Part shown: piece by piece, positions 19,273 to 64,000 of the stretch
Numbering within the stretch: the first letter of the stretch is position 1
Layout: each line of letters begins with the position of its first letter
From: Cerrena zonata
Taxonomy: Eukaryota; Basidiomycota; Agaricomycetes; Polyporales; Cerrenaceae
Assembly (NCBI GenBank): GCA_038087015.1
Contig: JASBNA010000021.1
Span: forward strand, 310,001-374,000
DNA: 64,000 nt
Reading direction: 5' to 3'
Notes under the pieces: generated by a model
The model's database searches: none
Seen by the model: the letters and a program-made list of their open reading frames with translations, nothing else
Told to the model about the DNA's origin: nothing
Made by a program: the position numbers and the translations under genes

Positions 19273-19275
19273 CTT

Positions 19276-32654: not shown

Positions 32655-33444
32655 ATGTCATTCTTTTGCTGCTGTGGTACCAAATCGACTTCACCCGTCT
32701 CAGATCAGTTTGAACTGATTGAAAGACATCAAGTATCCTCTCGATTTGAACTCTCTCTCAATCGCTTCAAGTCCCATCGAATCATCAATGATAGGGTGTT
32801 TCTGCCCATCTACTTCTATCGCCGCGCCAAAGATAACCTTGGACCTCACTTCTTTCAGGTGGACCCTTTGACAAAAGTGGTCCCTATATTGAAGTTGGGT
32901 CTGTCCTTAGTCTTGGTACTGCCTGACGACAATCCTTCAACCTCTCTCCGAAGGGACAAGTCCAGAGAAATCGAGTGTTTTGTTGTTGGAGTTGCCGATG
33001 CAAATCCCATCCGCGTTACCTTTACCATGGTCGGGGTCTTTCGAGGCCATCTCCAGATCTTCTACTTGGTATCCTTACGACGTCATATTGACCACAAAAA
33101 TCTCCCTCAATTGATTCAATGGGAAAATGGTCATCCAAAATGGGTATTCCTACCATATCATTCTTACAAAGCCCGTGCATCCGCACTTCTTCCTTTGGTG
33201 GATTCTATTATGTCCAACTGGTCTAGATTTGTCAAGACCGGTCTTCCTGCTCTTCGTGGAATGGAGACACATATTCTGGGGACGTCAGAACTTTTGCAGA
33301 TGGGTTCTGTCTTAACCTCTATTTCCTCGGTAAGAAATGATTTCCCATTTTAGATTTGAACAATAATTAATCTTCTAATAGGAGTTTTTCGGAGATTCGG
33401 TAGTCGTACGATCACCAAGGTTTTCTTTAAGGTATTTTTGCTGA
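32655..33444 (+). CDS. Antisense gene Y1 inside Gypsy-A, unknown function
   Basis: I do not recognise the family, but it is a paralogue of Y2 (54392-55220). Exon 1 (32655-33329, 225 codons) starts MSFFCCCGTKSTSPVSDQF. A 52-nt intron follows (33330-33381, GTAAGA...AATAG). Exon 2 starts EFFGDSV and stops by 33444, with the 3' end uncertain. Features shared with Y2 in order are FNDR/INDRVFLPI, a VGV turn, VGVFRGHLQIFYL against LGVFEKALQIIFL, H/YVDK...LPQLIQW, ARASALLPLVDSIMSNWSR against ARAKVVQNVDDDLTKWSR, and an intron of the same length at the same place. It runs opposite to gag and pol. The Cys-rich start could be lipid-modified; no clear membrane segment. Confidence 0.65.
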
Positions 33445-33981
33445 TATTCATTATTTGTAGGGATAAGTTGACTTTTTAATTGCCTGCTATTGCTGGTTTT
33501 TCTTGGGCTCCCAAAGTTTACCTGTATCCCAGTTTGTAACAGTATACAAGGGTCAAACATCCCGTTAGGTTTCTTGGATTGATTGTACTTGTACCAATCT
33601 TTTTGCTTTCTGAGCGGACTTCAATTTATATGGTTTTGCTATGAGATTTTCTGTCTTTTGTTCAGAAACTGCAAGGCATGCACTATTTCTGAATTGCTGT
33701 GTGATGCAAAAAGAGTTTTTGTTGTAATTAGACTTGTTCTCCGAAGGATAGAAATAGCTTTAACTTTAATCCACGATGTCAAGTTAATTTTAGAACATAT
33801 CGATGGACATAGGATAACACTTTTTATGGTCTTGGCAGTGAACGTATTTCTTGTTCTGACTGATATCTATTGGCTTGCAAGTATCTGGTGCCTCGAATTT
33901 GATTTATGTCGGAAATAGGATGGGGTTTTCTGGCTGAATATCCGGTCCTTCTTTGTTCGCAAGCGGATTACGACAACCCGT
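33445..33981. other. Gypsy-A internal sequence left of Gypsy-2
   Basis: This is noncoding as far as I can see. It was joined to 54287-54391 before Gypsy-2 inserted, so together they form the spacer of about 640 bp between Y1 and Y2. Confidence 0.5.
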
Positions 33982-34721
33982 TGTCCTGCGCGAAACAAGT
34001 TTCACCCAGAATCATGAAGAAAACAGACAACTATGCACCATTTCTCACCTTTTACTTTCATTTTATATATCTTACTTTGATACGTTTACTTACGATAAGA
34101 ATCTTTTCTATGCTACAGAACTATAAATAAATAAATAACTAAGTAGAACCTACCGGAACCTTCTACCAAAGTGATAGAACTTTGCGGAACCTTCCATTTC
34201 CTTCTCACTCTTTCTATTCATTTCCGTTTCTTTCTATCGTTTTCCAAGACATTCTTTTGACTGCTTAGTAATAGACATTCTCACACTTTCCGCCACTTTC
34301 CGGAGACTTCCGAGGCTCCTGATTGGCTGCTCAAAAGTGGGCATTTTAGTATATATAGAGGTCCGAATCCTGCATGTACTTTAGCTACTTTGCTCCCCTT
34401 GAACAGTTCAAGTGGTATTCAAGACAAGTTTTCCCCACAAGTTATAAGTTTAGGACCTAAGTCGGTCCCTCTTCAAGTTATATTCAGTATTATTGGACTT
34501 TTGACAAGTTCATCATCAGAGCATAGCTGCTCATCGTCACCAGTACCCCTATCTCGTCGAAGACATTACAATCGAACTCGAGTGTACTTCAAACCCCTCA
34601 AATCAAACGAACAACAGGGATAGTCGACGTAACGTCTCGTCCACAATTCTCTGTAGGAAGGACTGTTCTATTCTAAGGTTTACATCCTAAACTTTTAGAG
34701 TATTCATCTTTTCCCTCGACA
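33982..34721 (+). mobile_element. 5' LTR of Gypsy-2
   Basis: It starts TGTCCTGCGCGAAACAAG and ends TTTCCCTCGACA. A TATA-like GTATATATAGAGG at about 34350 probably marks the promoter. CGAACAACAGGGATAGTCG at about 34608 matches the other LTR families and probably lies in R/U5. Confidence 0.95.
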
Positions 34722-34725
34722 TCAT

Positions 34726-34743
34726 TGGAGCCCACCGCGAGGG
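34726..34743 (+). promoter_or_regulatory. Primer-binding-site candidate of Gypsy-2
   Basis: TGGAGCCCACCGCGAGGG begins four bases after the LTR. TGG is the complement of a tRNA CCA end. The same 18 bases occur at the same place in Gypsy-A. I did not assign the tRNA. Confidence 0.7.
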
Positions 34744-36965
34744 CTGATTAGTTCACTCCGTTCCTTTGTATGTCAATCAAAGAAGACACTGGCACTATCA
34801 TTTCTAGTCCCAGTTCTAGTCAGATTTCCATTGTTACCACACTTCCATCATCACCATCGAATTCTCCATCTGGCTCCTTAGTCAGTCTCCCATCCAATTC
34901 CACCAATCACATCATCCAATCCAATCAACTCAATCAATCACCTACAAGCATCAACATGCCGGCACTTACCGGCGTTGTGAATCTTCCGATTCCTGGGACC
35001 AAAGGGGCTCCTAAGAAATTCAAAGGGAAGTATTCAGAAATCCAGAAGTTTATTTCTCATTATGAGAAAGTTTGCACTCAGCGGAGTGTCACCGATCCTA
35101 AGGAAAAGGTAGAAAACATAACTCAGTATTGTTCAAGGAATGTACGAGAGTTTATGGAAGGCCTACCTAGCTATTCAAATGGAGAATGGCTCAAGTTTAC
35201 TCAAGACCTGCTTGAATACTTTGATGCAGAACGTGACGATAAGAGATATCGTTGCAATGATTTAGAAGCATTCTGTCTCAAAGCTCGCAAAGACAAAACC
35301 CGTATGCAAATGTCTCGATGGAAGGATTATAGTCGAGAGTTTATCCGTATAGCCGGTTGGCTAGTCACCCACAAGAAGATATCAGCAAATGAGCAGGCTC
35401 TTTACTTTTGGAAAGGAATCCCAAAGTCCTTTAGAGCTCAACTTGAGTCTCGTTTGTTGGCTATAGACCCATCTCATGATCTTGAAACTCCATTTGAGAT
35501 CAATGATATCCACAAGTTAGCCAAATCCATGCTTCAACGTAATCGTTTTGATCACGATCGACTTCCCTCAGATGGGGAAGATTCCAGTACTTCAAGTGAT
35601 GAAGCCTCCGAATCTGATTCCAACTCTGAATCTTCTGAATCAGAAGAAGAAACCACTACTCGCAAATCCAAGGATAAGAAGAAGAAGTCCAAGAAGCGCA
35701 AGACTGCTATTCGAAAGAAGGATCCAGTCCCAGTTAATGAGACTGAAGTCAAGAGGACCTCATACAAGTTGAATCAAGATGAGGAAATGGAGAACCTTAT
35801 TGCTCAGATGGGTAGAATGTCATTGACAGACCCATCTTATGCCATTCTTTACTATCGGGCTTTCCGTCTCAATCCCGTTGTGGCCGATATTATGACCCAA
35901 CCAGTGGATAGACCAAGAGGAAGCCGTCCAGGAATGTCCAATGACTTTATTGCAAACAGACCCAACAACAACCCACCAGCAAGACCTCCTCCACCAGGTG
36001 GAAATGCCTTTCAAACCTTTCAACAAGAAGAAAGAAAGTGTTATGGTTGTGGAGGCAGCGGACATGGAATGTTTTCATGCCCAGAGATGAACGATCTACT
36101 TCGTAGTGGTTCAGTCATCAGAGACCAAGCAGGAAGATACACCTTACCTGATGGTGCAATTATTCGCCGACAATCACCTGAGGAGACTCTTGCAGCAGCA
36201 GCTAGGCGTTTGAAGCCAGCTCAAGCTAATTATGTCTCTGTACACCAAGCAGTTATCAAAGAAAAGTTCTCAGATAATAGTGAAGAAGATTATGAGGATT
36301 TTTATGATGATGACTTTACCTATTTAGCAACCAGGAATTCTAAGCAAACTCAAGAGGCTCGCAGGGGATTTCAAGGTGTATTTCCCCCAGCCCGTACCAA
36401 GCATGCAGATGAGCATCCTCGAAGACATATTGTCAAGCAAGACACTCACGTAGAATCACCTCCCACAGGCAAAGTTACTAAGAACCCAATCCCAGTAGAT
36501 GTTAACCCGCCCGCCTTCAATCCTGAAGACGTGAACATGTTTGTTGATGATTAGTGTTGCAACGGCTCGGCTTTGGCCGGCTTTGGCCGGCTTGTACCGG
36601 CTTGAACGTATATCTGACCGGTTTGGAAGTCAAGTCATATGATTGGGCTGGCTCTGGCTGGCTCTGGTTTGAAGCCCGGCTTGTATCCAGCATGGGCGCT
36701 TATACCACTACTACAAGAATTGAATAAACGAAATCACTATGTATTATTTATTAGAGATTCCTTGATAGTGGTCTTATTTACCATAATATTAGGGGCCGTC
36801 AACGCAAGCCGAGACATACCTATTTTACGTTTTGCATAACCTCAAGCGATACATAGATCACTTCACCATAGATAGATGAACTACGTCCTGTGTTCAGATA
36901 TATCACCTTAAACACTGATGTCAATAGTAATGATCAATAATAGTGATCGCGCGAGGGAGTGGTGC

Positions 36966-38775
36966 AGCTGAAATCACTATCTAGTGTCATCTCGGTCATA
37001 CCAATAATACCATTCATTAGTGTCCCAATTGCAAAGGTGTGTCAGGAATAGAGTAGAGTGCGTAACTAAAATACTCAGACCGAATCTCATGTGACATGTT
37101 GGCTAGGAACTCGGATTTACTCCTATTTGCCAACTCCACGGCCTCTCTGGCAGTGGTGTTCGTCTGGATACTGTCCCGCAGGTTAAATACCATCTGGTTG
37201 ATCTGAGTTTTCAGTGAATCCATCTCTCCACCTGCTTTGACTGTAATGAATCGGCTGAAGTTGCCATCCATTGTAACATTGGCTATTGACCGCACTTGAT
37301 CTGTGAGACTTAAACACGTTCGGTTGACCTGAATGAGATCGTGTGAATATTTGCCTATTGTCGAGAGCAATGGTACTTACATTTCGAGTTAGTTCTAACC
37401 ATACCCCTTCGATGTCCGGTACATTCGCCTGACCGCCCAGTTTTCCTTCTTGTCCGACAGATCGCTGACAGTGACAGCCTTTGTGACCTTTGCAATAGAC
37501 CTGACCTGATTTGTGAGATTAGCGGCGAGATTGTTGACGACAGCCGTGAGTTTGCGCCAGATACCCTCGACATCGAGAACGTAAGCTTGACCTCCGAGTT
37601 TGCTGATGTCATGGTGGTGATAATATAAGCAAAACGTGGTAACAAATTAAATGAAATGAGTACGAACCCTTCTGTACCGACCTCCTGCGAGACCCGAGTG
37701 ACCTCTTGAGCGAATTGACTCAGTCTGTCAACCTGTGGTACGGAACCCCTGTCAATATTTCAGCGAGACGATGTCAATAGATAACTCACCATAGTGTTGA
37801 TAACTTCCTTGAGTTGGACCATGACCACACCTTGAACTGGGACCGTGATTTTCTGAGACACATCTCCGCGAGCGACAGCATTGCAAGCCCGTGAGACATC
37901 CTGAACCTGTTGCTTTAGGAGTTTGGGCTCCTCGACGATGCTCATACCAGATTCATATGCTGCAGCTGCGAGAGGACTGGGAGGGACAACCACTGGGGAG
38001 CTCAAGGGCTCACCAGTAATGAGTTCGACAGTAGTAGAGTTAGAAGTGTTGAAAGTGAAACCGTGACCGCAGTGAGGACAAGTGACGTGATGTTCATTAC
38101 CGTTAGGGAGACAGGTCCTATCGAGAGGGTTAGGGACACCATCAAGGTTAATAGTCATGGGATTAGAGCTGCTGTTGGCGGTGTGCTGAGTAGGGGCTGA
38201 AGGCGTAGTCTCGCTTTCGACGGTCTCGACATCAACTCGGTCTTTAGCCTCCTGGTAGGCACTGTTGAGGCTATTGACCGAGCTGTTGTTATGAGAGAAG
38301 AAGGGGGATTGGGAAGACACATCGCTAGGGGCGATGATGTTGGTAAACTCTGCTGAAGATGTAGAGGAAGAGCTGGAGATGGGCAGACTGTCGCTCACGG
38401 ACCTGTGTTTTTTGATATCGGGGCTAGCTCTCAGGCTCTTTGAGGTATTTATTGAACTGTAAGCTACTTCTGCTGTGTACATGCACCTCGCCATAGCCCC
38501 CAGGGAGCGGAAGATGCCCTATGTTTGTTGGTCAGAAAGTTCTTCACACTTCGGGATGGGGGCCCACTTGGACCAGGTTTGTAGAGAGAAAGCAAGGTAA
38601 TAAGGGGCGAAGCAAAGGGTCGATGTAAGCTAGGAGTCACAGACTTGTTGACTGCCAGCATTGTTGTTGTCGCCATTATGTGTGAGAGAGTAAGAATATC
38701 AAGGGACAGGATAAAGATAAAGGAAGCAGGCGCTGACATGACCTCTCGAGTCGTCGACTTATGGTCAATAGACAC
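36966..38775 (-). pseudogene. Captured fragment of a group III (Nik1/Os-1-like) histidine kinase
   Basis: On the minus strand a Ser/Thr-rich N-terminal region with a CPHCGHGF motif leads into the hallmark HAMP array: [67 protein letters not shown] and [12 protein letters not shown]. The last unit runs into [30 protein letters not shown] and the HisKA phospho-site segment [14 protein letters not shown] (about 37090). After an intron, [17 protein letters not shown] follows and then the similarity stops. The ATPase and receiver domains are absent. A deletion between HAMP units with a frameshift lies near 37460. Introns (for example after VINTM and VGTEG) are still present, so capture was at the DNA level, not by retrotransposition. 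Intact relatives sense osmotic stress and are fungicide targets; this copy cannot signal. Confidence 0.88.
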
Positions 38776-38890
38776 ATATGTGTAGATTTAACTGATTATA
38801 TTTGTTTCATATAAAATTGAAGTGCAATGCTGAGATGTCGGTACCAACAAAAATACAAATAAGATGTTACAAAGGATATATATATCGAAA

Positions 38891-41800
38891 CTACTTGCGC
38901 TTTGAAAGGAATGTCTCAGCATACGAATGGATATCTTCCGGGAATGATTCTTCAGCAGTCATAAAGGTCTCCAGGTTCTCCAACTCAACCTCGCAATTCA
39001 TTCCTGAGGTGAAATTCAATCCGCGACCCTTCTTCACCGAAAACTTCATCAGTTGAAGCGCCTCCATTAACTCAGGTGTGATACGATTTCGTCTGGGAGT
39101 CATGGTCTCTTTTGCAGATGAGAAAACACGTTCGCAAGGGACGGCGCTCCCTTGGATGGGAATTATATCCATAGCGAGCCGAAAGATGGTGGGATAACGG
39201 TCAGAATTTTCCTACAAGCCCCAAATATTGTCAGGTCACAAATAAAGGTGACAATGTCAAGAAAACTATATTCACCTGCCACCATGATAGGCTTGAGCTA
39301 TCTGGAGGAGCAAGCTGGTCGCTGAGGTATCGCTCAACTTCTGTCTCAAGGGACAATTGAGTTGGCGGCGCCCGAGTGCGCCGACGTCGGGAGTTCAAAA
39401 CACCATGAGCCCATTGTGCACGAGCATTGTGTGTAGGCGAGGCATCAGTGCCAGGACGATCAGCTGCCAGCGTCTCCATACGATACGGCCTGAGCTACAA
39501 GGGACATCAATACTTCTATCACGAAGACTAGATATAGATGGACTTACTTCACGTAAAAACAGCTCTCTCGCAGTTTGGGCCTTCTCTGGCATTTCGTTGT
39601 CGTAAAACCACATCAACTTCTCAGAAGGGTTGACGACTGTAGGAATTTTAAATAAGTCCAGTATAGCAAATAGATGCAGGGGCTTCGTACTCATTGCTAA
39701 GATATATGCAGGGACAAGTTCTGTGCGTTCGTGATATATCCCCAGTTTGTCGAGACCACGTTCTATAAATGGTGCAACTTCGGGATGGGCCTTTTGATAT
39801 TCTTTCCATGCAAACTCGAAGTCCGAATATGCAGGAAGGGCATCACAGAGTGTTGGCGTGCTCTCGAATGATAGTACTTGCTGAAAGGCATGAGGAACCT
39901 ATGTAAATTGGTGAGAATCTATAACATATATAACACATGTGAGATCCATACCTGTAGAATATCTCGGAATGCGTTCAAAGCCTCCCACTCAGCATCACTA
40001 AGGGCAAACTTTCGTAAATCTCGGAATTGGTCATTCTCCAGGAACAATGCAATAGCCTAGTGAATACATTAGAATGAGTGTTATAAAAGTAGGGTTACCA
40101 TACCTCGCGAAGATCTATAGCACGTGCAATCATTAGGAGTGTTGATGACCACCTTGTATCAACGTCACGAAGGAGCTGTAGATGCATATCAAGGGACTCC
40201 AAACACTTATTAAAATGATGCCGACGAAGAGAGGAAGCCCGAATCTGATAACAGGCACAAGATATTAATAATCGCACATGATCAGATCTGTCACAAGTCT
40301 TACAGTGCGTATGAGTGAGCGTATTGTGGCGATGGGATCACGTTGTAAAGCCTCAACAAAGGAAGCTGGTTGGGGGCCACCAGGGGGGGTATATTCTTCG
40401 GCATCTACTGCTGAAAATTTAACTTGTGTTATTGCTTCAATAACCGCCTTGCATGCTAGATTGACAACATGTGGGAAGCATCTGTAAATCAGACGTTTAT
40501 AAATTGCAGCACTGAGTTGGTATTTCGAGAAAGCTTACCGAATATGACGCTGAACCTTGTCAAACTTGATTCGTTGGCGGCGAAGCTCACGTTCTAAAGT
40601 TGCAAGAAGCGTGTCATTATTTGATGCGTTATCAACTGTAATCCACCCAATCTTTGATGAAGTAAGTAGTAGCATATAGTAGATCTTGTTTTGTTCATAC
40701 CTTTTCTGTGATACCAAGTCGATCTGTAATGTACAGAAGGGCATGGGCAAGATGTTCGCCCGTGTGTTGACCCGGTACTCGTTGGAAGCCAATGAGATCG
40801 GAACGCAGTTTTAAAACTTGACGTGGGCCATTCATGGTCTCTTCGATTTTGGCTTCGATCCAATGAGCGGTTACAGCCATAAATGGGGTAACGTTCGTAT
40901 CTGACCACATATCAGTGGTGAATGAAATCCGACCAATTGATTTCTATAGGAGTGAGAGTAAATAGCGTGGATGTACCTCGTCATGAATACGCTTACCTGC
41001 ATATCCTCTCTCAATTGTTGTAAATGGTTTTCTAGCGTCTCCAAAATACGATTACGTATTGCCGTACGAGATGGGATATCAGTATCCTGTAACTCCTGAC
41101 GCAGAAGAAGAAAGACGGCTCGGAGCTGAGGACACTCAACAACATTAAGGGACTAATAGTAGGTAACAATTACCATGACATACATTGATTTGGTTGTTAC
41201 GAATAACATACCTGATCATCAGCTATGATCCATTCCAGGAGTGCATTGACAAATGCTTCATTTGAAAACGCTTCACGTTGTGCTTCATTAGGCTGTGGTG
41301 CAGATGGACGAGGTTGGTTTTTCTGTTGGCGATAATGGGAGACGGCTTCTCCGATACCTTTTGCAGTGATGGGGATCTTGCGCTCATCACATGTATCCAC
41401 CCACGCAGCAAGATGGTGGTCGGCTAAGTGGTTACGAGGCGCGCTAGTAGAGGTCCCTGTAGAGAAACTAGCAACGACATGGTCGGAATGGGAGAGCCGA
41501 ATTTGTCTTTGAGTATGTTAGTTAGAAAGCGATTGATGGGTATATGATGACATGATCTTACTCGCAAAAAATGCAGTATCGGCGGTTGCCTCGAACCTCG
41601 AAAAAAGTTGAGACATCTGAGCCTTTCTTACTCTTCCTTTTCTTCTGGGCTTTTGTTGCATTGGCCCTTGCCTGACTATGAGGCCCAGCTCTTGGTGAGT
41701 TTGGGGTATGTGGCGACCGGGGTGTATATGGTGAGCGAGGGGCATGTGGTGAATGCGAAGCATGCGGTGAATGTGGAGTATGCGGAGGGCGAGGGGTATG

Positions 41801-42378
41801 AGGTGAGTGATTCGCACTAAGAGATGACTGCGAAGGCTGTGAAGGTCTAGAAGGAGTTGGCGTCGTTGGGCGTGAACCCGAGGATTCAGACCAGCCATCC
41901 TCGTTTATCTCAATTACCTCATATTCCGGCGAGGGTGCGAACCTCAGGTTTTGTGTGACTGGTCGAGATGGTCTCTGTGGGGTGTTGACCGTGTCAGTTT
42001 GTGCAGAGTGGCTATATGTCAGTTTGTAAGTATTGTGTCATATAAGATTCGATACTGGACCTACGCCGTAGATGATAATCGAACCTCAGCAAGAGTTGGC
42101 GGTGGTGGTTGATGCTCTCGACGTCGTGGAGAAGGTCGCGAGTGTGATTCCACTTGAACAACCTGAGGCGGAATTGAGGTAGTAGGTTGTGGCGGTGGAT
42201 TTTGCTTTTGACGTTGTGGCCGGGATCCTACACATAATCGCATTTTCAGTACACAAGCACATGATAGCTCGGGATGTAATTTACCTTCCGGATTACTCTG
42301 CAGATGGTTAGCAGGCTCCACTACAGTTACAGGTGCCTTCTTGGCACCACGCTTGGGTCGTCGAGGAGTTGAGGTCAT
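38891..42378 (-). CDS. hAT-2 transposase
   Basis: The start is near 42378 (MTSTPRRPKRGAKK), followed by Pro-rich segments including repeated SPHTP-like units (about 41690-41820). A BED-type finger begins FFEVRGNRRYCIFC, then comes HLAAWVDTCDERKIPITAKG. The core shows FTTDMWSDTNVTPF (catalytic Asp), GQHTGEHLAHALL, VDNASNNDTLLATLE and CFPHVVNLACKA. DVDTRWSSTLLMI and the C-terminal dimerisation block PIQGSAVPCERVFSSAKETM with RRNRITPELMEALQ then follow, ending at 38891. Many short introns join these, for example one of about 60 nt near 39210-39275. I saw no stop inside the blocks I followed, so it may still be functional. Neither TIR nor coding blocks look decayed. Confidence 0.85.
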
Positions 42379-44388: not shown

Positions 44389-47300
44389 GAACATAAGAAG
44401 GGAAAAGTCAGCATTCACAAGAAGACAACGTTGAAGACCAAGTTTACAGAAAAGGTTACTCACCGACATGTTAAAGACGAAAAGAAGTCGGAATGTGATC
44501 ATTGCCCACAGAATGGACACAATCCCTCAAAATGTCGAGCTCAACACCAGAGGAAGGGCCATGAGGACACGAAGACCACCGAGCGTGACAGTGAGCGACG
44601 AGAAGTTAGCACCTGTATAACGAAAGAGAAGGGAAAAGAAGACCAACCTCCACAATCCCTTCTTGAACGACTTTCGCGCCCTTGCACAACCTGCGGGCAT
44701 ACTCAGACCCCATCTCGATCCCCTACCATTGAACCTACTTTACCTGATCCGGATGCTACAACGACATCAACCGACGAAGATACAGTCAGCAAAGGATTGG
44801 TACCCACGAATGAAGAAGAGGACTTACTATCCAGCGAAGAAACCAGTGAGCCCAAAACAGCCACTCGACTTCGAGGCGGCTGTAGTGGTAGTGATGACGG
44901 CGGCGACTGGGAACTGTGTGAGAAGTTTGAGCGCCGGCAGGAGGAAATCACGGCAGCAAAGAGAAGGGAGGTGGAGTTGCAACGAGACGCGAGAGTACGG
45001 TACCGAGCCATACGAGCGGCTCGAAAGAGATGGATGGAAGCGAAGAAGAGGGGGGGGGAAGAGGAAGAGGTTCTCCAACCCTCCGAGACCCTGAGTGTTA
45101 TAGGGGCAAACGAGCCATCAGGAGAACAAACTGAGGATGATAACGACTTACCGAATCTAGTCTGGGAAGAGGAACCAATCACGAGCAACCTGGACCGGTT
45201 CGAAATCCAGAATCGCCGCCGGCCAGATCTACCACGATTCCCCAAGTCCCAGATTAGCGTTGTAGATGCAAATGAAACCCACGCGGCAGTGAGTTGCCAA
45301 CGTGGGTCGGCCAATCAGACGACCGATAATGCACGTGTGGTGCGGGGCTCCGCTAAATCCAAATCGGGATGCGGAGAACCCCAATATGGATCAGGAACGA
45401 TACTCTCGAAGAAGGAAGAAACCAGCCCTCAAGATTACCCAGAAAAGCATCATTTAATTCCAGATAACAACCCCGGACCCTCTTGCCTGTTAATCCAAAA
45501 TGGGATTAACAGCGCATGTGAAACCCCTCAGGGACCTAAGAAATTTATAGATGTCGGAACCTACGAGTCCAAAAGAGGCATCGAAGAGGAGCAACCAACC
45601 AATCAGGACACCCGGGTGTTCAAGAAACCCAAGACGGAAGTACCGGACGGTTATGATAGCAAGAACATATCCCCGACGAGAATCAAAGTAAGAGAGGGCA
45701 TAGCCGCCCTCTTCGATAACCGGCGAACGTACATACCGACGAGTCTGGGATTCATACTCGAAGATAAGAACCTAGTAGAGGAAAAGTTAGGATATAAAAC
45801 TTCAGCCGAGGACTCACCGATACCAGGTCTCCCCGTCTCAGTCAAAGGGAAACCTTCGTCAAATACGAGACCTCACTCGCACTCGACATCTCCTCCCGAT
45901 CCTACTATGACCACTCCTTTGACCGAACCCTCTCGCCCTCAACTCACCTTCGAAGATGCCGAGTTTTACGCCAACTTCTCAGCCGATTATGACCAATTGG
46001 TCCAGTGTGTGGGCAAAGGGGTGCCTCTTGGTCCAGGGGCTCTTGACAGTCTTCGAACTTTTATCCGAGAACTTAGCGTGGAGCCCACAACTTCCTATAG
46101 TGTTAGTGGCAGAGCTCACCTCCTCCAGCCTCCTGACGATGCCCAGCACCTGGTTTCGATGATCGCTCCAGGATCGACCTTGGTACGTCACCACGACGGC
46201 AGTAACGAGGACTTAAATATCTCCCGAGGCCTCGCTTTGATTACCTTCGTCCGCGACTCCTTTATCGAAAGATGGGACGGCATCAGAGTGGCTCAAAAGC
46301 CTTCGGATGTAGACAGTGGCCTTGGCTTAGATCAAAGAGCAGCCATCGAGACCAGAGATCGGGAACGCACAGTAAGCACCTTCGCAACTCTAGAGTTACC
46401 AAAACCGGATGAAGCACTTACCGGCGGCGATCATCAGGCAGTCCAAGTCCTGCTGGCGCTGGCACGTGCTCAAGCCTCTACGGGTTCCGTCTCGGAATCT
46501 TACCCCCCTCATCTTACTACTGAGAAAAGAGGGGAAGGCCCTTCCTCGACGCCCTCCTCGTTACAGCTCCCCTTGCCTGCTCCGAGGCCTTCCCTCTCAA
46601 CTCAAACCTCAGCTGCTAATCATGCCGCGGTGCTCGACGCTATACACGCCGAACACAATGAACCCTCAGAGGAAGTCACTCAGCTAACTCGAGTCGCCTC
46701 ACCTTGTGGCTCGAGCCCTTACAGCCGTCTCATATGGGTAACACATGATGGGGATGTATCGGTCACCTCTTCACCTTCTCCGCCCCCTCATTCGGCCAGT
46801 CTCGCCGGCGATACTTCCGAGGTGGCTAGTGTCTTCCATGTTGCCGATGCCCAGCTGGATCAAGTAACCATCGACCCTCGTCAACTGCACCCAGCCTTCA
46901 CCCCCATCAAGAAGCGAGCCATCCCTCGTAGACCAACTCCTTACCCATCATGGAATCAACGTCAAGCGGACCAGGACAGAGGGAATGGAATTAGCTCGCA
47001 GGGCCCAAAGGTTCATGGTATGCGCAACTTAGCTCGTCTTTTTGCAATAAAGCTGAAACTGTTGACTTCAGCCTACTCTCCGGCTTCTCCCACTCCGACA
47101 TCCTACTCGTTAGGATCATTGGACACTCTTATATCCGAAGACACCAACCAGGAAGAAGGCGAGCTCGATGAAAGATCCTTCGCTCCTATCATCAATGCGT
47201 TCCCCGCAGTCCCCAATAACTCGCCCTTGGAGGTATGGATATCATCAGACCCCGAGTATAGCTTCACGGTAGCTGACATGGTTCGATTCCAGCAGGATGC

Positions 47301-48129
47301 CCAGAGCAGCATCATGCCTCCGCTTGCCTACGATGACAACTCCCGGCTACGCTTCCCCCTTGCTGCTGTAATGAGTGCTCCGCCCTCTCAGGCCTCTGAT
47401 GCCCATACCAACAACTCAGGTGATCCGTTCTTGCTAGGATATCCATCGACGTCGTCGATACAATCGACACCTCCTTTCTTGCCTACTGGAACCTTTCACC
47501 GACATGATACGTCGCCGGTCCCATCCACGATTAGCTCGTGGATGGATGACATCGAGCCCTATGACGTGCCTATGCCCATTGACAACTCATATGCGGCCCA
47601 ATTCGACCCTGCCACCATATATTATGAATACAAGACATATATTGGGTACGATCCAACTCTCGACAAGGATTTTTTCCTTGACTGCCAACAAATGACGGCC
47701 AGGACTCTCAAAACCGCTGAGGACCACGTCCGGCTATACCAACGGAAAGATTGGCTGGACAAACGAGTCATGGACCGTCCCACCATCAACGACCCCCAAG
47801 CCCAAGACGAATACATCAAAATGTTCGTGGTTCCTAACAACGATGACCCAAGGGACAACCTCTTTATGTGGGGAGTCGAACGTTGCCATGCCCGTCAATG
47901 TATCCGCTGGCTCAACGATCAAGAAAACCCCTCACCCTACGATCTCATCATCCGGGACGACCTCATAGGCCTGCTCTCTTATCAACTCAACGATCCCGGA
48001 GCAATTGAGTACGTCAACGCTCGACGCAACCGTGGCGACTTTGGACCCCCTGGAGGCTGGGCCCCACTTCAGACTCGTATTGACCTTGAACTCGCCGATT
48101 ACCACGGCGGATTCCTCCGTTTACGATAG
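44389..48129 (+). CDS. Gypsy-2 Gag extension plus ORF-X, unknown function
   Basis: The frame is the same as gag-protease, directly after its TGA, and is open for 1246 codons. The first part has a second CCHC zinc knuckle, CDHCPQNGHNPSKC (about 44490), a CTTCG pair, and long charged, disordered stretches. The second part, from a Met at 45907 (MTTPLTEPSRPQLTFEDAEF, 740 aa), is homologous in layout to ORF-X of Gypsy-A. It has an N-terminal domain around FYANFSADYDQLVQCVGKGV, a Pro/Ser-rich middle, and a C-terminal domain ending CIRWLNDQENPSPYDL...RRNRGDFGPPGGWAPL. It may be made by readthrough, by internal start, or as part of one polyprotein if the TGA is a mutation. No membrane segment is seen, so an envelope role is unlikely. 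Confidence 0.65.
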   Translation, partial: EHKKGKVSIHKKTTLKTKFTEKVTHRHVKDEKKSECDHCPQNGHNPSKCRAQHQRKGHEDTKTTERDSERREVSTCITKEKGKEDQPPQSLLERLSRPCTTCGHTQTPSRSPTIEPTLPDPDATTTSTDEDTVSKGLVPTNEEEDLLSSEETSEPKTATRLRGGCSGSDDGGDWELCEKFERRQEEITAAKRREVELQRDARVRYRAIRAARKRWMEAKKRGGEEEEVLQPSETLSVIGANEPSGEQTEDDNDLPNLVWEEEPITSNLDRFEIQNRRRPDLPRFPKSQISVVDANETHAAVSCQRGSANQTTDNARVVRGSAKSKSGCGEPQYGSGTILSKKEETSPQDYPEKHHLIPDNNPGPSCLLIQNGINSACETPQGPKKFIDVGTYESKRGIEEEQPTNQDTRVFKKPKTEVPDGYDSKNISPTRIKVREGIAALFDNRRTYIPTSLGFILEDKNLVEEKLGYKTSAEDSPIPGLPVSVKGKPSSNTRPHSHSTSPPDPTMTTPLTEPSRPQLTFEDAEFYANFSADYDQLVQCVGKGVPLGPGALDSLRTFIRELSVEPTTSYSVSGRAHLLQPPDDAQHLVSMIAPGSTLVRHHDGSNEDLNISRGLALITFVRDSFIERWDGIRVAQKPSDVDSGLGLDQRAAIETRDRERTVSTFATLELPKPDEALTGGDHQAVQVLLALARAQASTGSVSESYPPHLTTEKRGEGPSSTPSSLQLPLPAPRPSLSTQTSAANHAAVLDAIHAEHNEPSEEVTQLTRVASPCGSSPYSRLIWVTHDGDVSVTSSPSPPPHSASLAGDTSEVASVFHVADAQLDQVTIDPRQLHPAFTPIKKRAIPRRPTPYPSWNQRQADQDRGNGISSQGPKVHGMRNLARLFAIKLKLLTSAYSPASPTPTSYSLGSLDTLISEDTNQEEGELDERSFAPIINAFPAVPNNSPLEVWISSDPEYSFTVADMVRFQQDAQSSIMPPLAYDDNSRLRFPLAAVMSAPPSQASDAHTNNSGDPFLLGYPSTSSIQSTPPFLPTGTFHRHDTSPVPSTISSWMDDIEPYDVPMPIDNSYAAQFDPATIYYEYKTYIGYDPTLDKDFFLDCQQMTARTLKTAEDHVRLYQRKDWLDKRVMDRPTINDPQAQDEYIKMFVVPNNDDPRDNLFMWGVERCHARQCIRWLNDQENPSPYDLIIRDDLIGLLSYQLNDPGAIEYVNARRNRGDFGPPGGWAPLQTRIDLELADYHGGFLRLR

Positions 48130-49332
48130 AGGCGACTTCTACAAGAGAAGTCCCCTCTCGAAGTCGGAACGCAGCGCGTTCCTTCTTCCGGTTCCGTTTT
48201 GTTTTTTTATTTTCTTCTTTTTCTTTTCGATTTCGATTTCTTTTCCTCTGCGTTTCTTTCCTACCCCCGGACGTTCCACTCCTCGGACATTACCTGCTAG
48301 CGGACGAGTGACACGGGAGGCGTCGGTAGCATCGTGTTGCACCACGCTTGTACGATCACACGTTATACTTTACGAAAACTTATAGTACGGCTCGTTTTCT
48401 TTTCTTTCAACTTTTTTTCTTATCCTCGTTTCGACTCGCGACTCACCTTAACTTACGAAACCCACGCACAGTACTCTACGGACCGTCTCGTTTTCCTAGT
48501 TTCCTACCTTACTCGCTTCTAAATTGCTACTCTATCGACCATTTTTAACTCTATCTCACAAAAACCCAAATATATTGTCTTTTCTATCTCTCTCTATACC
48601 TCTAAGACGGCGCGAGCCTATGAGATTATAAGTTGAGACTTAGAAAGACAAAACAAAAACACAACATAACACAAAACATACGAATTTCCTTATCGGGCAT
48701 CGCGGCCTTAGATAATATTTTCAATTATTTTTTTCTCTTTCCTTTTATGGTTTTACGATATTTCGACTTTGACTCGATGTTCCGTTTTGACTTTGACTTG
48801 GTTTCTCTGTTGTTTCAACATCTTTTGTGTTTCGACTTATGTTCTTTTCTTTCCTCCATATGTTCCAAGCTCCCTTTCCACTCTCACCTCTTACCTTTTC
48901 TCAGTTCTCTTCTAGGTACATGAGGTTTCGTCTTTTCGTACCTACGATTGTACTTAGAACAGACTCGGAATACATGGGCGAATCGGAATGCCCCCATTTA
49001 CCTTAGGGTCCCCTGTGTGTGACCTACCTTTTCAACTCAACAAAACTCAACACACTTCGGACATTCAGCGGCGTGTCCACGTTCAAGCCTAGCCGCTACC
49101 TTTACGAACTTTTACGACCTCACGACTTCTTACCAGAAGTCAACGACATCTTACGACAACTTACGACCTTTAACGAACTCTCACAAACTCTTACGACCTT
49201 TGACGACCTTTGACGATCCCTTATGACTTTAACGACCTTTGACGATTACCTATCCTGACTTACAATTAGTTGGACTTCAGTACACCTCTTGAGTAAGGTG
49301 TACCCCGTCCTTTCAACTCAGCCTTGCTGAAA

Positions 49333-49653
49333 CTTGTGGAACCTGGATTAAAAGCCACAAGCGACTCCCACCACACTTGCGGAAACTGGATTAAAAGCCT
49401 CAAGTGATTCTCATAACTTTCGTGGAAACTGGATTACAAGCCCCGATTGTTCTTTACGATATTACGACATTCTATTGCGACTGTGATTCCCATAGTTGGA
49501 TCCTTTCACGCACACCCCATACGATTATTCTCGACGACTTGGATCAGAGCTCCCAAGGACGGTCATTTACGATTACACAGATTCCAAGAAGGAATACTGA
49601 TATTACGATTACTTTTGGACCCTGCTTGAGGAACCTGGATTACAAGCCCCAAG
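49333..49653. repeat. 43-bp tandem repeat forming 29-nt hairpins
   Basis: Copies at 49333-49361, 49376-49404 and 49419-49447 are spaced exactly 43 bp; a further copy is at 49625-49653. The pattern is CTTGNGG, loop AAMCTGGATTAMAAG, then CCNCAAG, so the arms pair while the loop is conserved. On the minus strand the loop reads CTTTTAATCCAG or CTTGTAATCCAG, which resembles tRNA-Lys or tRNA-Thr anticodon loops. Arm changes in copy 4 are partly compensatory; copy 3 pairs less well. Confidence 0.7.
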
Positions 49654-49787
49654 TACTTCCCACGTTTTGAGCTGTCAAAGGACACCTCCATCAAGAATTT
49701 ATTTTGCTCCAAGAGAGAGCCACGAAGATTACGAATTGCCATACAAGCCAGTCGGTATTGACGAATACTTAGGAAAGTCCTTCTGGA

Positions 49788-49820
49788 AAGGACAGTTGCT
49801 ATCTCAAGTGACCCCCAGAC
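49788..49820 (+). promoter_or_regulatory. Internal copy of the polypurine-tract region
   Basis: ACAGTTGC then TCTCAAGTGACCCCCAGA matches the sequence abutting the 3' LTR (53512-53542) and its Gypsy-A counterpart. It could be a central initiation site for plus-strand synthesis, or a scar of past recombination. Confidence 0.5.
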
Positions 49821-49979
49821 GTATATCACTTGGATATATAGCACTGTATTGGCCCATCAAGTTTATTTCAGTACCACTCAGGTACCTACAACTTATCAAC
49901 AAGTCTCAAGATCTGTTACGATTTACCAAGTTTTACTCACAATCACTTACGATTTGCACCTTACAAGAAGAGTGCCACT

Positions 49980-52900
49980 ATGAGTTTACGTCCTGCTGCT
50001 ACAACTTTCATTCGGAAAGTTTCTAAGTGGAAGACTAAGGCCACAAGCTGGGTTCGAACCCATAAGCTGTCTGCTTTAGTATCAGAGGAGCCTTACAAGA
50101 AGCTTCCTGATCCCCCGGATATCCCACAACTTATTGAGGAAGATCCTAGTGATCCCTTAAGTTGCATTTATGCTCAGTTAGAACAAGACGATGAGTTTGT
50201 TTACGAAATGAGTGGAGAGGTATTCACTGCCTACAAACGTGTAGACCAGAAAGTAAAGCCTATCCCTGGAGTATTTCCTGAAGCAGCTCGAGTCATACGA
50301 CAATTCCCTGAAGATCCATTGGCTTCATTGCCAATGCTATCACCTCGACCTCCTGTTTTCCAACCAAATGGACGACTCACTACCAAACGATTAGATGAAA
50401 TGAACATCAACCCCGAAGGATTCTTACTCCCAGAAGAAGAGAAGCTATTCAAGCATATCCTACAGCTCAATCAACACACACTTGTGTTTGAAGAAGAACA
50501 CCGAGGTTCTTTACGAGATGACTATTTCACTCCTTACATCATTCCCACAGTTCCACACATACCTTGGGCTTTCTCTAACATCCCTATACCACCTGGTATC
50601 AAGTCACAAGTTGTTGAGATCCTCAAAAGCAAGGTAGACGTAGGCGTCTATGAGCCTAGTCAATCATCCTACCGTTCAAGATGGTTTTGTGTTTTGAAGA
50701 AGAACGGAAAGCTACGATTAGTCCATGATTTGCAACCACTGAATGGAGTCACCATTCGTGATGCTGGACTACCCCCTATCCTCGACTCCTTTGTAGAACC
50801 ATTTGCAGGATGTCAGTGTTATACTGCCTTTGATTTACATTGGGGATTCGACGCACGCAAGATCCACACCTCAAGCAGGGACATGACAGCGTTCATGACT
50901 CCCTTAGGCTTATTACGACTCACATCCCTTCCTATGGGATTCACTAATTCCCCTGCCGAATTCCAAGCATGTATGGCCTTTATCCTGAAAGATGAAATGC
51001 CACACATTGCAGACATCTTTATTGACGACTTACCTATCAAAGGACCTCTCACTTGCTACCCTGATGAAAATGGAAACCCTGAAGTACTCAGAGATAACCC
51101 AGGCATCCGCCGGTTTATCTGGGAACATGCCTTAGATGTTCATCGTATTATGCACCGCATAGGACATGCAGGTGGAACTTTCTCTCCCTCGAAAGCACAG
51201 ATTGCTAAGAGAGAAGTCATTATACTTGGACACAAATGTACACCTGAAGGCCGAATTCCTGACCCACTCACCATTGACAAAGTCAAGAACTGGCCTGCCC
51301 TAAAGACTCCTAAGAATGTTCGTGAATTTCTTGGACTCTGTGGTACAGCTCGTATTTGGATCAAGGACTATTCATCCAGAGCAAGACCCCTTACTGAACT
51401 CATCCGTCAAGGTGCAACCTTTGATTGGGATGAGAGAAGACAAGCCGCCTTTGAAGATTTGAAGGAAGCTATCACCACTGCCCCTGTTTTATTACCTATC
51501 GATTATGCCTCTGAAAGACCTATTGTCCTATCTGTTGATTCAAGTTACATCGCAGTTGGTTTCATCTTATCACAAAAAGATGAACAAGGACGAAAGAGAC
51601 CTGCTCGATATGGTTCCATTCCTATGAACGAGAGAGAAGCTCGTTACTCTCAACCCAAGTTAGAACTCTATGGTCTTTTCCGAGCCCTTCGAGCTTTCCG
51701 ATTATATCTTGTTGGTGTTAAGAAACTTGAAGTAGAAGTTGATGCCAAGTATATTCGTGGAATGCTCAAAGAACCTGACCTACAACCCAATGCCTCTATC
51801 AATCGCTGGATTCAAGGAATCCTATTGTTTGACTTTGAATTGATACACATACCTGCTGAACGACACCAAGGACCCGATGCACTATCCAGACGAGAGCTAG
51901 GAGAAGGAGAAGTCATAGAAGAAGAAGATGACTCCTGGCTCGATGAGATAGTTTTGTTCACAAGTGAACCCCATGAAGCGCTCGATGACTCACACATTCC
52001 TTACAACCCTTTACAACTCATTCCTGTTTACCTGGCTTCTGAATCCCCTCAAGATGCAATTCTCCAAGCCATTAACCGATTCTTACTCACTGGACAACTC
52101 CCTGCCCATCTCGATGCTCAAACTAGACGACGATTCCTCGTACGGTCCAACCGATTCTTTCTCAAAGATGGAAAGATGTTCCGAACCAATGGAATCAAAC
52201 CCCCACTCAAGGCAATTCTCTCAAACACCACTCGACTCAGTATTCTGAAAGGTGCCCATGAACAGTTAGGACACCGAGGAGAACAAGCTGTTATGCACAC
52301 GCTCAAAGAAAGATTCTATTGGCCTAATATGTGGAACGATGTCCACCACCACGTACGATCCTGTCATGAATGTCAAGTCCGCAGCACTCGAAAGGTTGAA
52401 GTCCCTCTCACACCATCATTCCCAGCAACTATCTTTGTTAAATGCTATGTCGATATTATGTTCATGGACAAAGGCATGGGATTCAAGTACATTGTCGCAG
52501 CCAGAGATGACTTATCTCGAGCAGCTGAAGGACGAGCCCTACGAAACACCAAAGCTAAGACTCTTGCACAATTCTTTTGGGAAGAAATCATCTGCCGTTA
52601 TGGTGCTGTTGGTGAAATTGTCACCGACAATGGCACTGAAGTACTAGAAGCCTTTGAAGAACTTGTACGCCGCTATGGAATCCCTCACATCAAGATCTCA
52701 CCTTACAACTCGAAAGCCAATGGAGTTGTAGAACGAGGACATTTCACTATCCGAGAGAGCATTATGAAAGCCTGCAGAGAAAACCCTACCAAATGGCCTG
52801 AATATGTCCACTATGCATTCTTTGCTGACAAAGTTACTATCAGCCGATCTACTGGATTCTCCCCTTACTTCTTGTTATATGGTGTTGAACCAGCATTACC

Positions 52901-53393
52901 TCTCGACTTAGCCGAAGCAACTTTCCTTGTTGAAGGATTTCACTCAGGAATGTCTACATCTGATCTACTCGCTCTTCGCATTCGTCAACTCCAAAAGAAA
53001 CAAGAAGACATTGATAAAGCAGCTCACACTCTTGCTCAGACTCGTGTTCGATCCAAAGAACAGTTTGAAAAGAGATTCAAGCACCGAATGTTTACCGATT
53101 CTCACAAAGAAGGTGATCTAGTGTTAGTTCGTAACACCACCATTGAGAAGTCTCTCAACCGCAAATGCAAGCCTCGATACTTAGGACCCTATGAAGTTGT
53201 TAAGCGCACTCAAGGAGGTGCTTACATCTTAAAAGAACTAGATGGAGCTGTCTGGAGACAGAAGGTTGCAGCCTTTCGAATCCTTCCCTATGTCAGCCGA
53301 AGTGACACAAGATTTCAAGAATTATTCCCCTCAACCTCAGGAAGCAACATTCAAGAGATTGGACCTGACGATGAAGATTATGGATCTGATTGA
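49980..53393 (+). CDS. pol: Gypsy-2 Pol: reverse transcriptase, RNase H, integrase
   Basis: The 1137-aa open frame is intact from MSLRPAATTFIRKV to DDEDYGSD. After about 100 residues similar to the Pol start of Gypsy-A (PLSCIYAQLEQDDEF, VDQKVKPIPGVFPE), RT follows with VYEPSQSSYRSRWFCVLKKN and catalytic FIDDLPIKG (about residue 347). RNase H has SVDSSYIAVGF, KLELYGLFRALRAF and VEVDAKYIRGM. The integrase zinc finger is HEQLGHRGEQ...CHECQ, and its triad lies in VDIMFMDKG, VTDNGTEV and ANGVVERGH. YLGPYEVVKRTQGG near the end is the GPY/F-like module. Protease is not here; it lies with Gag, 5.6 kb upstream. This Pol looks functional. Confidence 0.95.
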   Translation: MSLRPAATTFIRKVSKWKTKATSWVRTHKLSALVSEEPYKKLPDPPDIPQLIEEDPSDPLSCIYAQLEQDDEFVYEMSGEVFTAYKRVDQKVKPIPGVFPEAARVIRQFPEDPLASLPMLSPRPPVFQPNGRLTTKRLDEMNINPEGFLLPEEEKLFKHILQLNQHTLVFEEEHRGSLRDDYFTPYIIPTVPHIPWAFSNIPIPPGIKSQVVEILKSKVDVGVYEPSQSSYRSRWFCVLKKNGKLRLVHDLQPLNGVTIRDAGLPPILDSFVEPFAGCQCYTAFDLHWGFDARKIHTSSRDMTAFMTPLGLLRLTSLPMGFTNSPAEFQACMAFILKDEMPHIADIFIDDLPIKGPLTCYPDENGNPEVLRDNPGIRRFIWEHALDVHRIMHRIGHAGGTFSPSKAQIAKREVIILGHKCTPEGRIPDPLTIDKVKNWPALKTPKNVREFLGLCGTARIWIKDYSSRARPLTELIRQGATFDWDERRQAAFEDLKEAITTAPVLLPIDYASERPIVLSVDSSYIAVGFILSQKDEQGRKRPARYGSIPMNEREARYSQPKLELYGLFRALRAFRLYLVGVKKLEVEVDAKYIRGMLKEPDLQPNASINRWIQGILLFDFELIHIPAERHQGPDALSRRELGEGEVIEEEDDSWLDEIVLFTSEPHEALDDSHIPYNPLQLIPVYLASESPQDAILQAINRFLLTGQLPAHLDAQTRRRFLVRSNRFFLKDGKMFRTNGIKPPLKAILSNTTRLSILKGAHEQLGHRGEQAVMHTLKERFYWPNMWNDVHHHVRSCHECQVRSTRKVEVPLTPSFPATIFVKCYVDIMFMDKGMGFKYIVAARDDLSRAAEGRALRNTKAKTLAQFFWEEIICRYGAVGEIVTDNGTEVLEAFEELVRRYGIPHIKISPYNSKANGVVERGHFTIRESIMKACRENPTKWPEYVHYAFFADKVTISRSTGFSPYFLLYGVEPALPLDLAEATFLVEGFHSGMSTSDLLALRIRQLQKKQEDIDKAAHTLAQTRVRSKEQFEKRFKHRMFTDSHKEGDLVLVRNTTIEKSLNRKCKPRYLGPYEVVKRTQGGAYILKELDGAVWRQKVAAFRILPYVSRSDTRFQELFPSTSGSNIQEIGPDDEDYGSD

Positions 53394-53525
53394 GATCCTT
53401 GTCAACCACATTCAACCTTGAATATGTATCATCTCACAATCGGTATTCTCACAACTCGTACAACTCTTTCTTTTCTCTGTCTAAGGTTCCAAGACCCTTA
53501 GAGCACAACTGAGGGCAGTTGTATT

Positions 53526-53542
53526 TTCAAGTGACCCCCAGA
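53526..53542 (+). promoter_or_regulatory. Polypurine-tract region of Gypsy-2
   Basis: TTTCAAGTGACCCCCAGA directly abuts the 3' LTR. The equivalent in Gypsy-A differs by one base, so this segment is under constraint and probably primes plus-strand DNA. Confidence 0.6.
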
Positions 53543-54282
53543 TGTCCTGCGCGAAACAAGTTTCACCCAGAATCATGAAGAAAACAGACAACTATGCACC
53601 ATTTCTCACCTTTTACTTTCATTTTATATATCTTACTTTGATACGTTTACTTACGATAAGAATCTTTTCTATGCTACAGAACTATAAATAAATAAATAAC
53701 TAAGTAGAACCTACCGGAACCTTCTACCAAAGTGATAGAACTTTGCGGAACCTTCCATTTCCTTCTCACTCTTTCTATTCATTTCCGTTTCTTTCTATCG
53801 TTTTCCAAGACATTCTTTTGACTGCTTAGTAATAGACATTCTCACACTTTCCGCCACTTTCCGGAGACTTCCGAGGCTCCTGATTGGCTGCTCAAAAGTG
53901 GGCATTTTAGTATATATAGAGGTCCGAATCCTGCATGTACTTTAGCTACTTTGCTCCCCTTGAACAGTTCAAGTGGTATTCAAGACAAGTTTTCCCCACA
54001 AGTTATAAGTTTAGGACCTAAGTCGGTCCCTCTTCAAGTTATATTCAGTATTATTGGACTTTTGACAAGTTCATCATCAGAGCATAGCTGCTCATCGTCA
54101 CCAGTACCCCTATCTCGTCGAAGACATTACAATCGAACTCGAGTGTACTTCAAACCCCTCAAATCAAACGAACAACAGGGATAGTCGACGTAACGTCTCG
54201 TCCACAATTCTCTGTAGGAAGGACTGTTCTATTCTAAGGTTTACATCCTAAACTTTTAGAGTATTCATCTTTTCCCTCGACA
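53543..54282 (+). mobile_element. 3' LTR of Gypsy-2
   Basis: It is 740 bp, the same length as the 5' LTR, with the same start and end. It is followed by the CCGT target duplication. Confidence 0.95.
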
Positions 54283-54391
54283 CCGTCCGATCAAGATCCC
54301 GCTTACCAGTGAGTCTTCTTGTTCTAATATATAGTGTGACTTGGCTGTCGACAACTTGTTTCTTCTTGTCATTCGACTCCCATCTTCTATA

Positions 54392-55220
54392 ATGTTAGGG
54401 CACCGACTTCTTCAGGCCTCTGGTCTCGCGCACTATTATCCCGAACCTCCTCCCGAAGTACCAAACCTCGAATATTCTTCTGACAATTTAGATCAGGTCC
54501 CAGGGATCATAATCGAGGGGGAATTTATGTATCGTAGCAAGAATCCGCTTCAATTCCCTCATCACATTGGTCTTTTCCGTCCCTTCGTGGATCATCCGTT
54601 CATTAGATTTAACGATAGAATTTGGTTGCATATTGTGGGTGTTCCTGATCCTGAATTCATTAGGGAACCATCCCTCTACTCTATCAGGGGTTGGATTATT
54701 GGGGTTCACTTCGCGACTTCAGACTTTGTCGAATTTGTCATCCTGGGTGTATTCGAAAAAGCACTCCAAATTATCTTTTTGGATGTGCTTAACAACTACG
54801 TTGACAAAACTCGCTGTCCTCCTTTACTGTATACGCTTGGAAATATTCAGTATTGGTCGTACATGTCTATCGACAATATTGAAGCCCGGGCCAAAGTCGT
54901 CCAAAACGTGGATGACGATCTGACCAAATGGAGTCGAACCTACCGCATTATTCAAGCCAATCTAATGCGTCTGCGTTGTACTCCCAGTCGAATTGTCATT
55001 TTTATCGATCCCATTACCTATCCAAAGGTATGTTCTCTCTTCGATTTATTTTGTAAATAATTTGCTGATATATTGTCAGTTGTATGCAGCTTTCTTTTAT
55101 ATCATCGAAATACCTGCGGAGGCTGCGGCCAACATTCCTGAAGGGGTACGTAATTTTTGACATTGTTATAACCATTTCTTGACGAGGATTCTTTGTATTT
55201 AGGCACGAGTTACTTTTTGA
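54392..55220 (+). CDS. Antisense gene Y2 inside Gypsy-A, unknown function
   Basis: This paralogue of Y1 also runs opposite to gag and pol. It has three exons: 54392-55027 (212 codons, start MLGHRLLQASGLAHYYPEPP), 55080-55145 (LYAAFFYIIEIPAEAAANIP) and 55203-55220 (ARVTF stop). The introns are 52 and 57 nt with GTATGT/CAG and GTACGT/TAG borders. All junctions keep frame, giving 239 aa. The core shares with Y1 the FNDRIWLHIVG, LGVFEKALQIIFL and ARAKVVQNV..LTKWSR segments. It is mostly hydrophobic/aromatic with no clear signal peptide. The first intron is at the same position and of the same length as in Y1, so the two arose by duplication of an intron-bearing gene. Confidence 0.7.
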
Positions 55221-59806: not shown

Positions 59807-59941
59807 ATTGCTATATAGCGATAGAGGTTTATAGTTAAAGTGTGGTGAGTGATTTGAAGGGTAGGTTAGACAATTGCGCTGTGGTTCTGGTTTCTGTACT
59901 GACTTTTCTCTCTCCCTTTTATACTGATTCCCCTGTAGTTG

Positions 59942-63805: not shown

Positions 63806-63841
63806 ATAAAGGAAACACAACAATTAAAGTAGATAACCAAC

Positions 63842-63863: not shown

Positions 63864-64000
63864 TGTCGGTCTCAGAAAGTGATTAGTCTATATAGGACTA
63901 AATACGAACTTTCCTCGCAGAGAAATCTTGGGTGAGACGTTACACCGAATATTCCCTGTTGTTCGTTGAGTTGGGATTGTTTTTATCTACTTGCCCGCTT
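63864..64000 (-). mobile_element. 5' LTR of Gypsy-A, cut by window edge
   Basis: The visible 137 bp match 27222-27358 of the 3' LTR as far as I compared, in the same orientation. About 940 bp should lie beyond the window. Confidence 0.92.

Follow-up and report, generated by a model that had tools for sequence, protein, structure and literature searches.

Two paralogous, intron-bearing genes antisense to gag and pol are probable accessory genes of a lineage of large Ty3/Gypsy elements in Cerrena zonata

The window analyzed here, a stretch of 64,000 nucleotides (nt) from Cerrena zonata (contig JASBNA010000021.1, positions 310,001 to 374,000), contains Gypsy-A, a Ty3/Gypsy long terminal repeat (LTR) retrotransposon with gag, protease, reverse transcriptase (RT), RNase H and integrase between its LTRs and a target site duplication (TSD). 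The gag-protease open reading frame (ORF), a region called ORF-X and the pol ORF lie on the minus strand, and between ORF-X and pol two genes, Y1 and Y2, occupy the plus strand, antisense to the genes of the element that carries them. Contigs of this genome are denoted by C and a number; C21 is the contig that holds the window, and the C21 Y genes are the window copy. The features of the two genes and of their carrier are the following.

32655..33329, plus strand: Y1 exon 1, 225 codons
33330..33381, plus strand: Y1 intron, 52 nt, phase 0, GT...AG
33382..33444, plus strand: Y1 exon 2 with stop, 20 amino acids (aa) in the window copy
54392..55027, plus strand: Y2 exon 1, 212 codons
55028..55079, plus strand: Y2 intron, 52 nt, phase 0, its splice place backed by the codon-position pattern of the C16 and C26 copies
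55080..55160, plus strand: Y2 exon 2, with the stop at 55160 absent further splicing
32391..32404, plus strand: 14-nt motif GYATCTGSYGCCTC, 264 nt upstream of the Y1 ATG
33881..33894, plus strand: 14-nt motif GYATCTGSYGCCTC, upstream of Y2, with Gypsy-B intervening in the window copy
54326..54334, plus strand: TATA-like box of Y2, beginning 66 nt before the ATG
27222..28298, minus strand: Gypsy-A 3' LTR (TG...CA), flanked by the TSD GCGG
28782..31937, minus strand: Gypsy-A pol ORF (RT, RNase H, integrase), from the Pfam search and the ORF list
57705..59941, minus strand: ORF-X, two overlapping frames (57705-58649 and 58583-59941), from the ORF list
59942..63823, minus strand: Gypsy-A gag-protease ORF, with Pfam DUF4100 above the cut-off and an aspartyl protease match below it
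63864..64000, minus strand: Gypsy-A 5' LTR, 137 nt within the window, continuing past its edge to C21:374940
33982..54282, plus strand: Gypsy-B, a second Gypsy nested between Y1 and Y2 and outside the Y module, with 740-bp LTRs and the TSD CCGT

The LTRs of Gypsy-A (27222-28298 and C21:373864-374940) are 100% identical across 1077 nt, and the TSD GCGG is 4 nt long. In pol, the Pfam families RT_RNaseH_2, Integrase_H2C2 and rve score above the cut-off and RVT_1 below it; a stop in the window copy truncates the predicted start (~32177), the stretch 31937-32177 being open in C48, C16 and C37. The DUF4100 match in gag would point to a basidiomycete. The 452-aa frame of ORF-X has homologues in C48, C157, C4, C16, C37 and at C21:384k. 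The predicted start codons of Y1 and pol are divergent and separated by 477 nt (window), 568 nt (C16) and 528 nt (C37). A preliminary description of this DNA had called Gypsy-A a giant element, an appearance that is due to the insertion of Gypsy-B, whose LTRs are 100% identical across 740 nt and flanked by CCGT, between Y1 and Y2; the C48 copy is uninterrupted at the insertion point. Without Gypsy-B, Gypsy-A is ~17.4 kb long, and the elements of C37, C16 and C48 measure 16.4, 16.5 and 16.8 kb, respectively.

That Y1 and Y2 are homologous and lie antisense between ORF-X and pol, as first described, is confirmed by their places, strand and order and by BLASTP, which aligns the two proteins with 27% identity over 114 aa (E = 8e-10). 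The first intron, which had been proposed to splice in frame, is in phase 0 in all eight gene models (Y1 of C21, C48, C16 and C37; Y2 of C21, C48, C16 and C26), and the codon-position pattern of the C16/C26 pair resumes past it; the Y2 of C37 stands outside these models, with its intron not settled. The equal intron length that had likewise been remarked upon holds in the window, where both introns have 52 nt and phase 0, but is a coincidence, since the lengths range from 52 to 63 nt in the eight models and more distant copies have introns of 55, 56, 61 and 63 nt. The second exons are more variable or less certain, as the Y1 tail of C48 differs from that of the window copy, and Y2 would end either by read-through to the stop at 55160 or, as first drawn, after a second intron ending at ~55203, with a short tail either way. 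On the gag/pol-sense strand, the longest open frames across exon 1 of Y1 and Y2 have 68 and 76 codons, so that the Y genes are not the shadow of a sense gene, and when the bases of either exon 1 were shuffled, none of 2000 shuffles each remained open.

Whole-genome searches queried with the Y1 and Y2 copies of C37 as well as those of the window, in which the best candidates were scored and all counts are therefore lower bounds, found Y sequence at 12 loci of this genome. Eight of these belong to this Gypsy lineage, with Y antisense in every one. The order gag, ORF-X, Y2, Y1, pol, with both Y genes antisense, is found at five loci (window, C48, C16, C37 and C4, the last with stops in several genes); C157 shows gag, ORF-X, Y2 and Y1 before the contig ends, and C32 retains degenerate copies of both Y2 and Y1 together with pol fragments, all in the expected order. 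In a neighboring element at C21:378-388k, gag is accompanied by an ORF-X match and by a pol that is truncated; of the Y genes, only the antisense end of Y2 is left (C21:380k). Thus Y lies between ORF-X and pol at all six loci that have gag, ORF-X and pol, and both genes are antisense at five of the six, the element at C21:378-388k being the sixth. Three carriers have nearly identical LTR pairs, each with a TSD (window 100%, C16 99.7%, C37 99.6%), indicating recent transposition, and the LTRs of C48 are 93.6% identical.

The pair that is informative for selection is Y2 of C16 and C26, which over 213 codons shares 91% protein identity, with dN ~0.05, dS 0.65-0.89 and a dN/dS ratio (omega) of 0.05-0.07 by three methods. 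Identity in exon 1 is 92.5, 95.3 and 65.3% at codon positions 1, 2 and 3; the intron, the site of the only two gaps of the gene, is 73.8% identical, and in the spliced frame of exon 2 the codon-position pattern returns (91.2, 97.1 and 61.8%). The same pattern on either side of the intron supports protein and splice together. At the level of sequence, this one pair thus demonstrates purifying selection on Y2 across the splice. The 5' flank is 84.2% identical over the 488 nt before the start codon, exceeding third codon positions, as expected of a promoter, and the 3' flank is 69.6% identical with 55 gap columns. With C21 as the outgroup, the 23 protein differences divide into four on the C26 side, six on the C16 side and 13 that are unresolved, indicating no excess of change in C26. 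When a frame of Y2 length was simulated without selection, it stayed open in 158, 48, 5 and 2 of 500 runs at 5, 10, 20 and 30% point changes, respectively. For Y1, omega between C16 and both C21 and C48 is 0.20-0.29, and for RT it is 0.008-0.35 where computable, aside from two maximum-likelihood values that look unreliable.

The 55.5 Mb of the genome contain 10 perfect copies of the upstream motif GYATCTGSYGCCTC, nine of which precede a Y start codon on the Y strand at a distance of 165-290 nt (Y1 of C21, C48, C4, C16 and C37; Y2 of C21, C48, C157 and C37). For Y2 of the window this distance was computed leaving out Gypsy-B; in the uninterrupted C48 copy, the motif stands 206 nt before the Y2 ATG. 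With one mismatch, it is also present before Y2 of C4 and the degenerate Y2 of C1. A word search in six spacers that was given no motif beforehand recovered GYATCTGSYGCCTC with 6 mismatches in the best four partners, compared with at least 10 in each of 60 shuffles. Overall, the sequence comparisons suggest that Y1 and Y2 are genuine genes, conserved and equipped with switches of their own.

We consider it likely, from their sequence and arrangement, that Y1 and Y2 serve one lineage of large Ty3/Gypsy elements as accessory protein genes, carried antisense and provided with promoters of their own. The two genes may stem from an old duplication, and would be transcribed from their upstream promoters and not from the LTR, giving spliced antisense mRNAs, with the common motif placing both under joint control. 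Their introns would survive because the genomic RNA copied during retrotransposition contains them in antisense orientation; the argument of the preliminary description, that an antisense intron escapes removal from this RNA, is sound. Its proposal that the pair are cargo genes of the retroelement is borne out as far as the Gypsy context and antisense strand are concerned, whereas the word cargo is doubtful, since divergent element families have retained both Y genes in a single position, which is more in line with accessory genes. The role of Y is probably regulatory, with the proteins perhaps acting in trans on transcription, silencing or nuclear entry of the element. A specifically nuclear regulatory role, argued by analogy, has a likelihood that we put at about one in three. 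A more elaborate version appears doubtful to us, in which the pair would form a self-contained antisense module, its two spliced proteins sharing the same 14-nt promoter element, exerting control in trans and possibly binding that motif, and in which the Y2 of C26 would have left the element and been retained by the host in the manner of an ordinary gene.

LTR retrotransposons with antisense accessory genes are known, but what these genes do is not; the Y pair would add a fungal example that combines introns, paralogy and a common motif. Boty-like elements with the antisense gene brtn were reportedly described by Zhao et al. in 2011. In the passages available, brtn is a single gene of the Boty-like elements of Botrytis cinerea, placed between pol and the 3' LTR (PMC7264820; PMC5987419; PMC4227169). 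By description, these are thus fungal LTR elements with an additional gene antisense to gag-pol, as are the Y carriers, and they differ in having one gene between pol and the 3' LTR in place of two paralogues between ORF-X and pol. The earlier statement that no such pair was known in fungal Gypsy elements agrees, for the pair, with the titles and abstract openings of open-licence papers that the searches returned, none of which reports a fungal Gypsy element with two antisense genes that bear introns, a scope that falls short of proving the pair absent from print; it needs amending for single antisense genes, of which brtn was already in print (PMC7264820, in part).

In plants, the available part of PMC7264820 describes antisense accessory ORFs (aORF-3R) in Grande (gene23), RIRE2 and Retand that are kept across families. 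Y resembles these in being additional to gag-pol, antisense to it and kept in most copies of the family, and departs from them in position, the plant ORFs lying between pol and the 3' LTR. The antisense ORFs of Retand mostly have a TRP28 domain (PF04195), which has no match in five Y2 and four Y1 members, and the available part of the Retand paper (PMC11963269) makes no use of the word "intron". The best comparison for the role of Y is offered by Grande gene23; it is driven by a promoter of its own and encodes a nuclear protein (PMC7264820, in part). Outside the LTR elements, PMC9548176 describes group I introns of nuclear ribosomal DNA whose homing endonuclease genes, in sense or antisense orientation, contain spliceosomal introns. 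Like Y, these would be intron-bearing genes antisense to a mobile carrier, although homing endonucleases and group I introns are involved, and not LTR elements. The antisense gene HBZ of human T-cell leukemia virus type 1 (HTLV-1) is spliced. Its product is nuclear (PMC11963269, in part), and an antisense promoter of HTLV is placed in the 3' LTR (PMC7264820, in part). As far as these descriptions go, HBZ and Y are both antisense protein genes of a retroelement, with HTLV-1 being a retrovirus. The Y pair thus extends the known antisense accessory genes of LTR retrotransposons, and what appears to be new is that it is spliced, paralogous, located between ORF-X and pol and preceded by a common motif. 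Recent copies with intact Y frames make expression and function directly testable, and antisense genes between protease and RT raise the question of how pol is expressed.

Several observations weigh against this interpretation. No Pfam family matches five Y2 and four Y1 members at E up to 10, and family searches together with fold searches, the latter with a weak Y2 model, point to no particular function. In the Y comparisons of C21 with C48 (omega 0.6-1.3) and of Y2 of C21 with C4 (0.5-0.9), values are near neutral, and for most pairs drawn from C16, C21 and C37 the synonymous sites are saturated; dead or young element copies are often near-neutral. The comparison of dN and dS between Y copies, proposed at the outset as a check, thus comes out in favor of constraint for Y2 of C16/C26 and not for the C21/C48 and C21/C4 pairs. 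The reversed motif, used as a control, has five matches in the genome, so that a few motif matches are expected by chance; the tenth match of GYATCTGSYGCCTC (L079, C57:152894-152907) lies between other reading frames with no Y homologue in 5 kb around, and the motif was not found before Y2 of C16 and C26. The insertion of Gypsy-B between the motif (33881) and the TATA-like box (54326) may have cut off Y2 of the window from part of its promoter. The C48 element has one stop in pol and no visible TSD. Close relatives by RT (C50, C11, C2:1085k and Gypsy-B) gave no Y match in the whole-genome searches, the spacer having been inspected directly for C50 and the Gypsy-B of the window, indicating that Y is at most helpful to the clade and not essential. 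Finally, the remaining four of the 12 Y loci (C1, C2, C26 and C97) have no recognizable element sequence in the flanks searched, with no gag, pol or ORF-X match within ~15, 9, 9 and 14 kb, respectively, and no LTR match in a search from which, at the Y genes, ~4.4 kb of C1 and 0.5 kb of C2 were excluded.

These free-standing loci raise the possibility that the element captured Y1 and Y2 from its host, of which they would still be ordinary genes, with the free-standing copies as the source. C26 has an intact, intron-bearing Y2 without recognizable element sequence in 9 kb, introns are expected of host genes, and what the four loci share with elements is limited to the Y genes and spacer: similarity extends between C1 and the C48 element across Y2, the spacer and most of Y1, between C2 and C16 across Y1, between C97 and C37 for ~950 nt at Y2, and between C26 and C16 for ~1.8 kb around Y2. 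This confinement is only suggestive, because small fragments retrieved by a Y search must contain Y. The C26 protein is 91% identical to Y2 of the C16 element and 45% to that of C21, and thus falls inside the element-borne diversity and is not basal; it is also the sole intact free-standing copy, as C1, C2 and C97 have stops, and the position of Y is shared even by elements with Y proteins no more than ~29-52% alike. We therefore regard a host origin of this kind as unlikely, and C26 may instead represent a host take-over of a retroelement accessory gene.

It is very improbable, in our estimate, that the frames matter little as protein and that antisense RNA or the spacer is what is kept, for example for regulation through double-stranded RNA. 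A regulatory role of antisense RNA has been put forward for plant elements (PMC7264820, in part), and the 5' flank of the C16/C26 pair is indeed more conserved than third codon positions. The codon-position pattern and an omega of 0.05-0.07 on both sides of the intron nevertheless require selection on the protein, making an RNA-only view already hard to hold for Y2. Marginally less probable still is that the pair is a relic of another mobile element that inserted antisense and is passively carried. Four Y loci without recognizable Gypsy sequence are what a separately mobile unit might show, whereas the lack of a Pfam match leaves Y without a known transposase domain, the ends of the C26 block (the sole block inspected) have no terminal repeats by eye, and the codon-position constraint of C16/C26 is not expected of passive sequence.

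Other features of the window and its carriers include a minus-strand frame of 141 aa (57370-57795) beyond ORF-X, in which a hydrophobic segment comes after a basic stretch of RPWW type; C16 by eye has something similar, and the product is possibly a membrane protein. In five elements (L072, L074, L076, L078 and the window at 34722), TGGAGCCCACCGCGAG stands just after the 5' LTR and is likely the primer binding site, and no purine-rich stretch is present ahead of the 3' LTR in the sequences shown for these elements. In turn, ~6 kb (37017-43345) separate the gag of Gypsy-B from its protease as an interruption of that element. Within this interruption, 37017-38518 on the minus strand resembles what we take to be pieces of a fungal histidine kinase, and 38891-39211, also minus, is presumably the end of a hAT-like transposase. 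A solo LTR of the Gypsy-A type (10023-11099) is 100% identical to the Gypsy-A LTR and lies in the opposite orientation with the TSD CCGT. A palindromic repeat of ~717 nt, resembling miniature inverted-repeat transposable elements, occurs in seven copies, with arms of ~275-290 nt and 143-165 nt between the arms where listed:

2220-2936, 6759-7475, 15587-16302, 16939-17653, 18557-19273, 25249-25965 and 55693-56409: copies of the palindromic repeat

The last of these copies lies between Y2 and ORF-X and is not in C48. An inverted repeat at 21142-24790 has arms of ~1.2 kb that are 99.7% alike, each with two tandem copies of a 137-nt unit.

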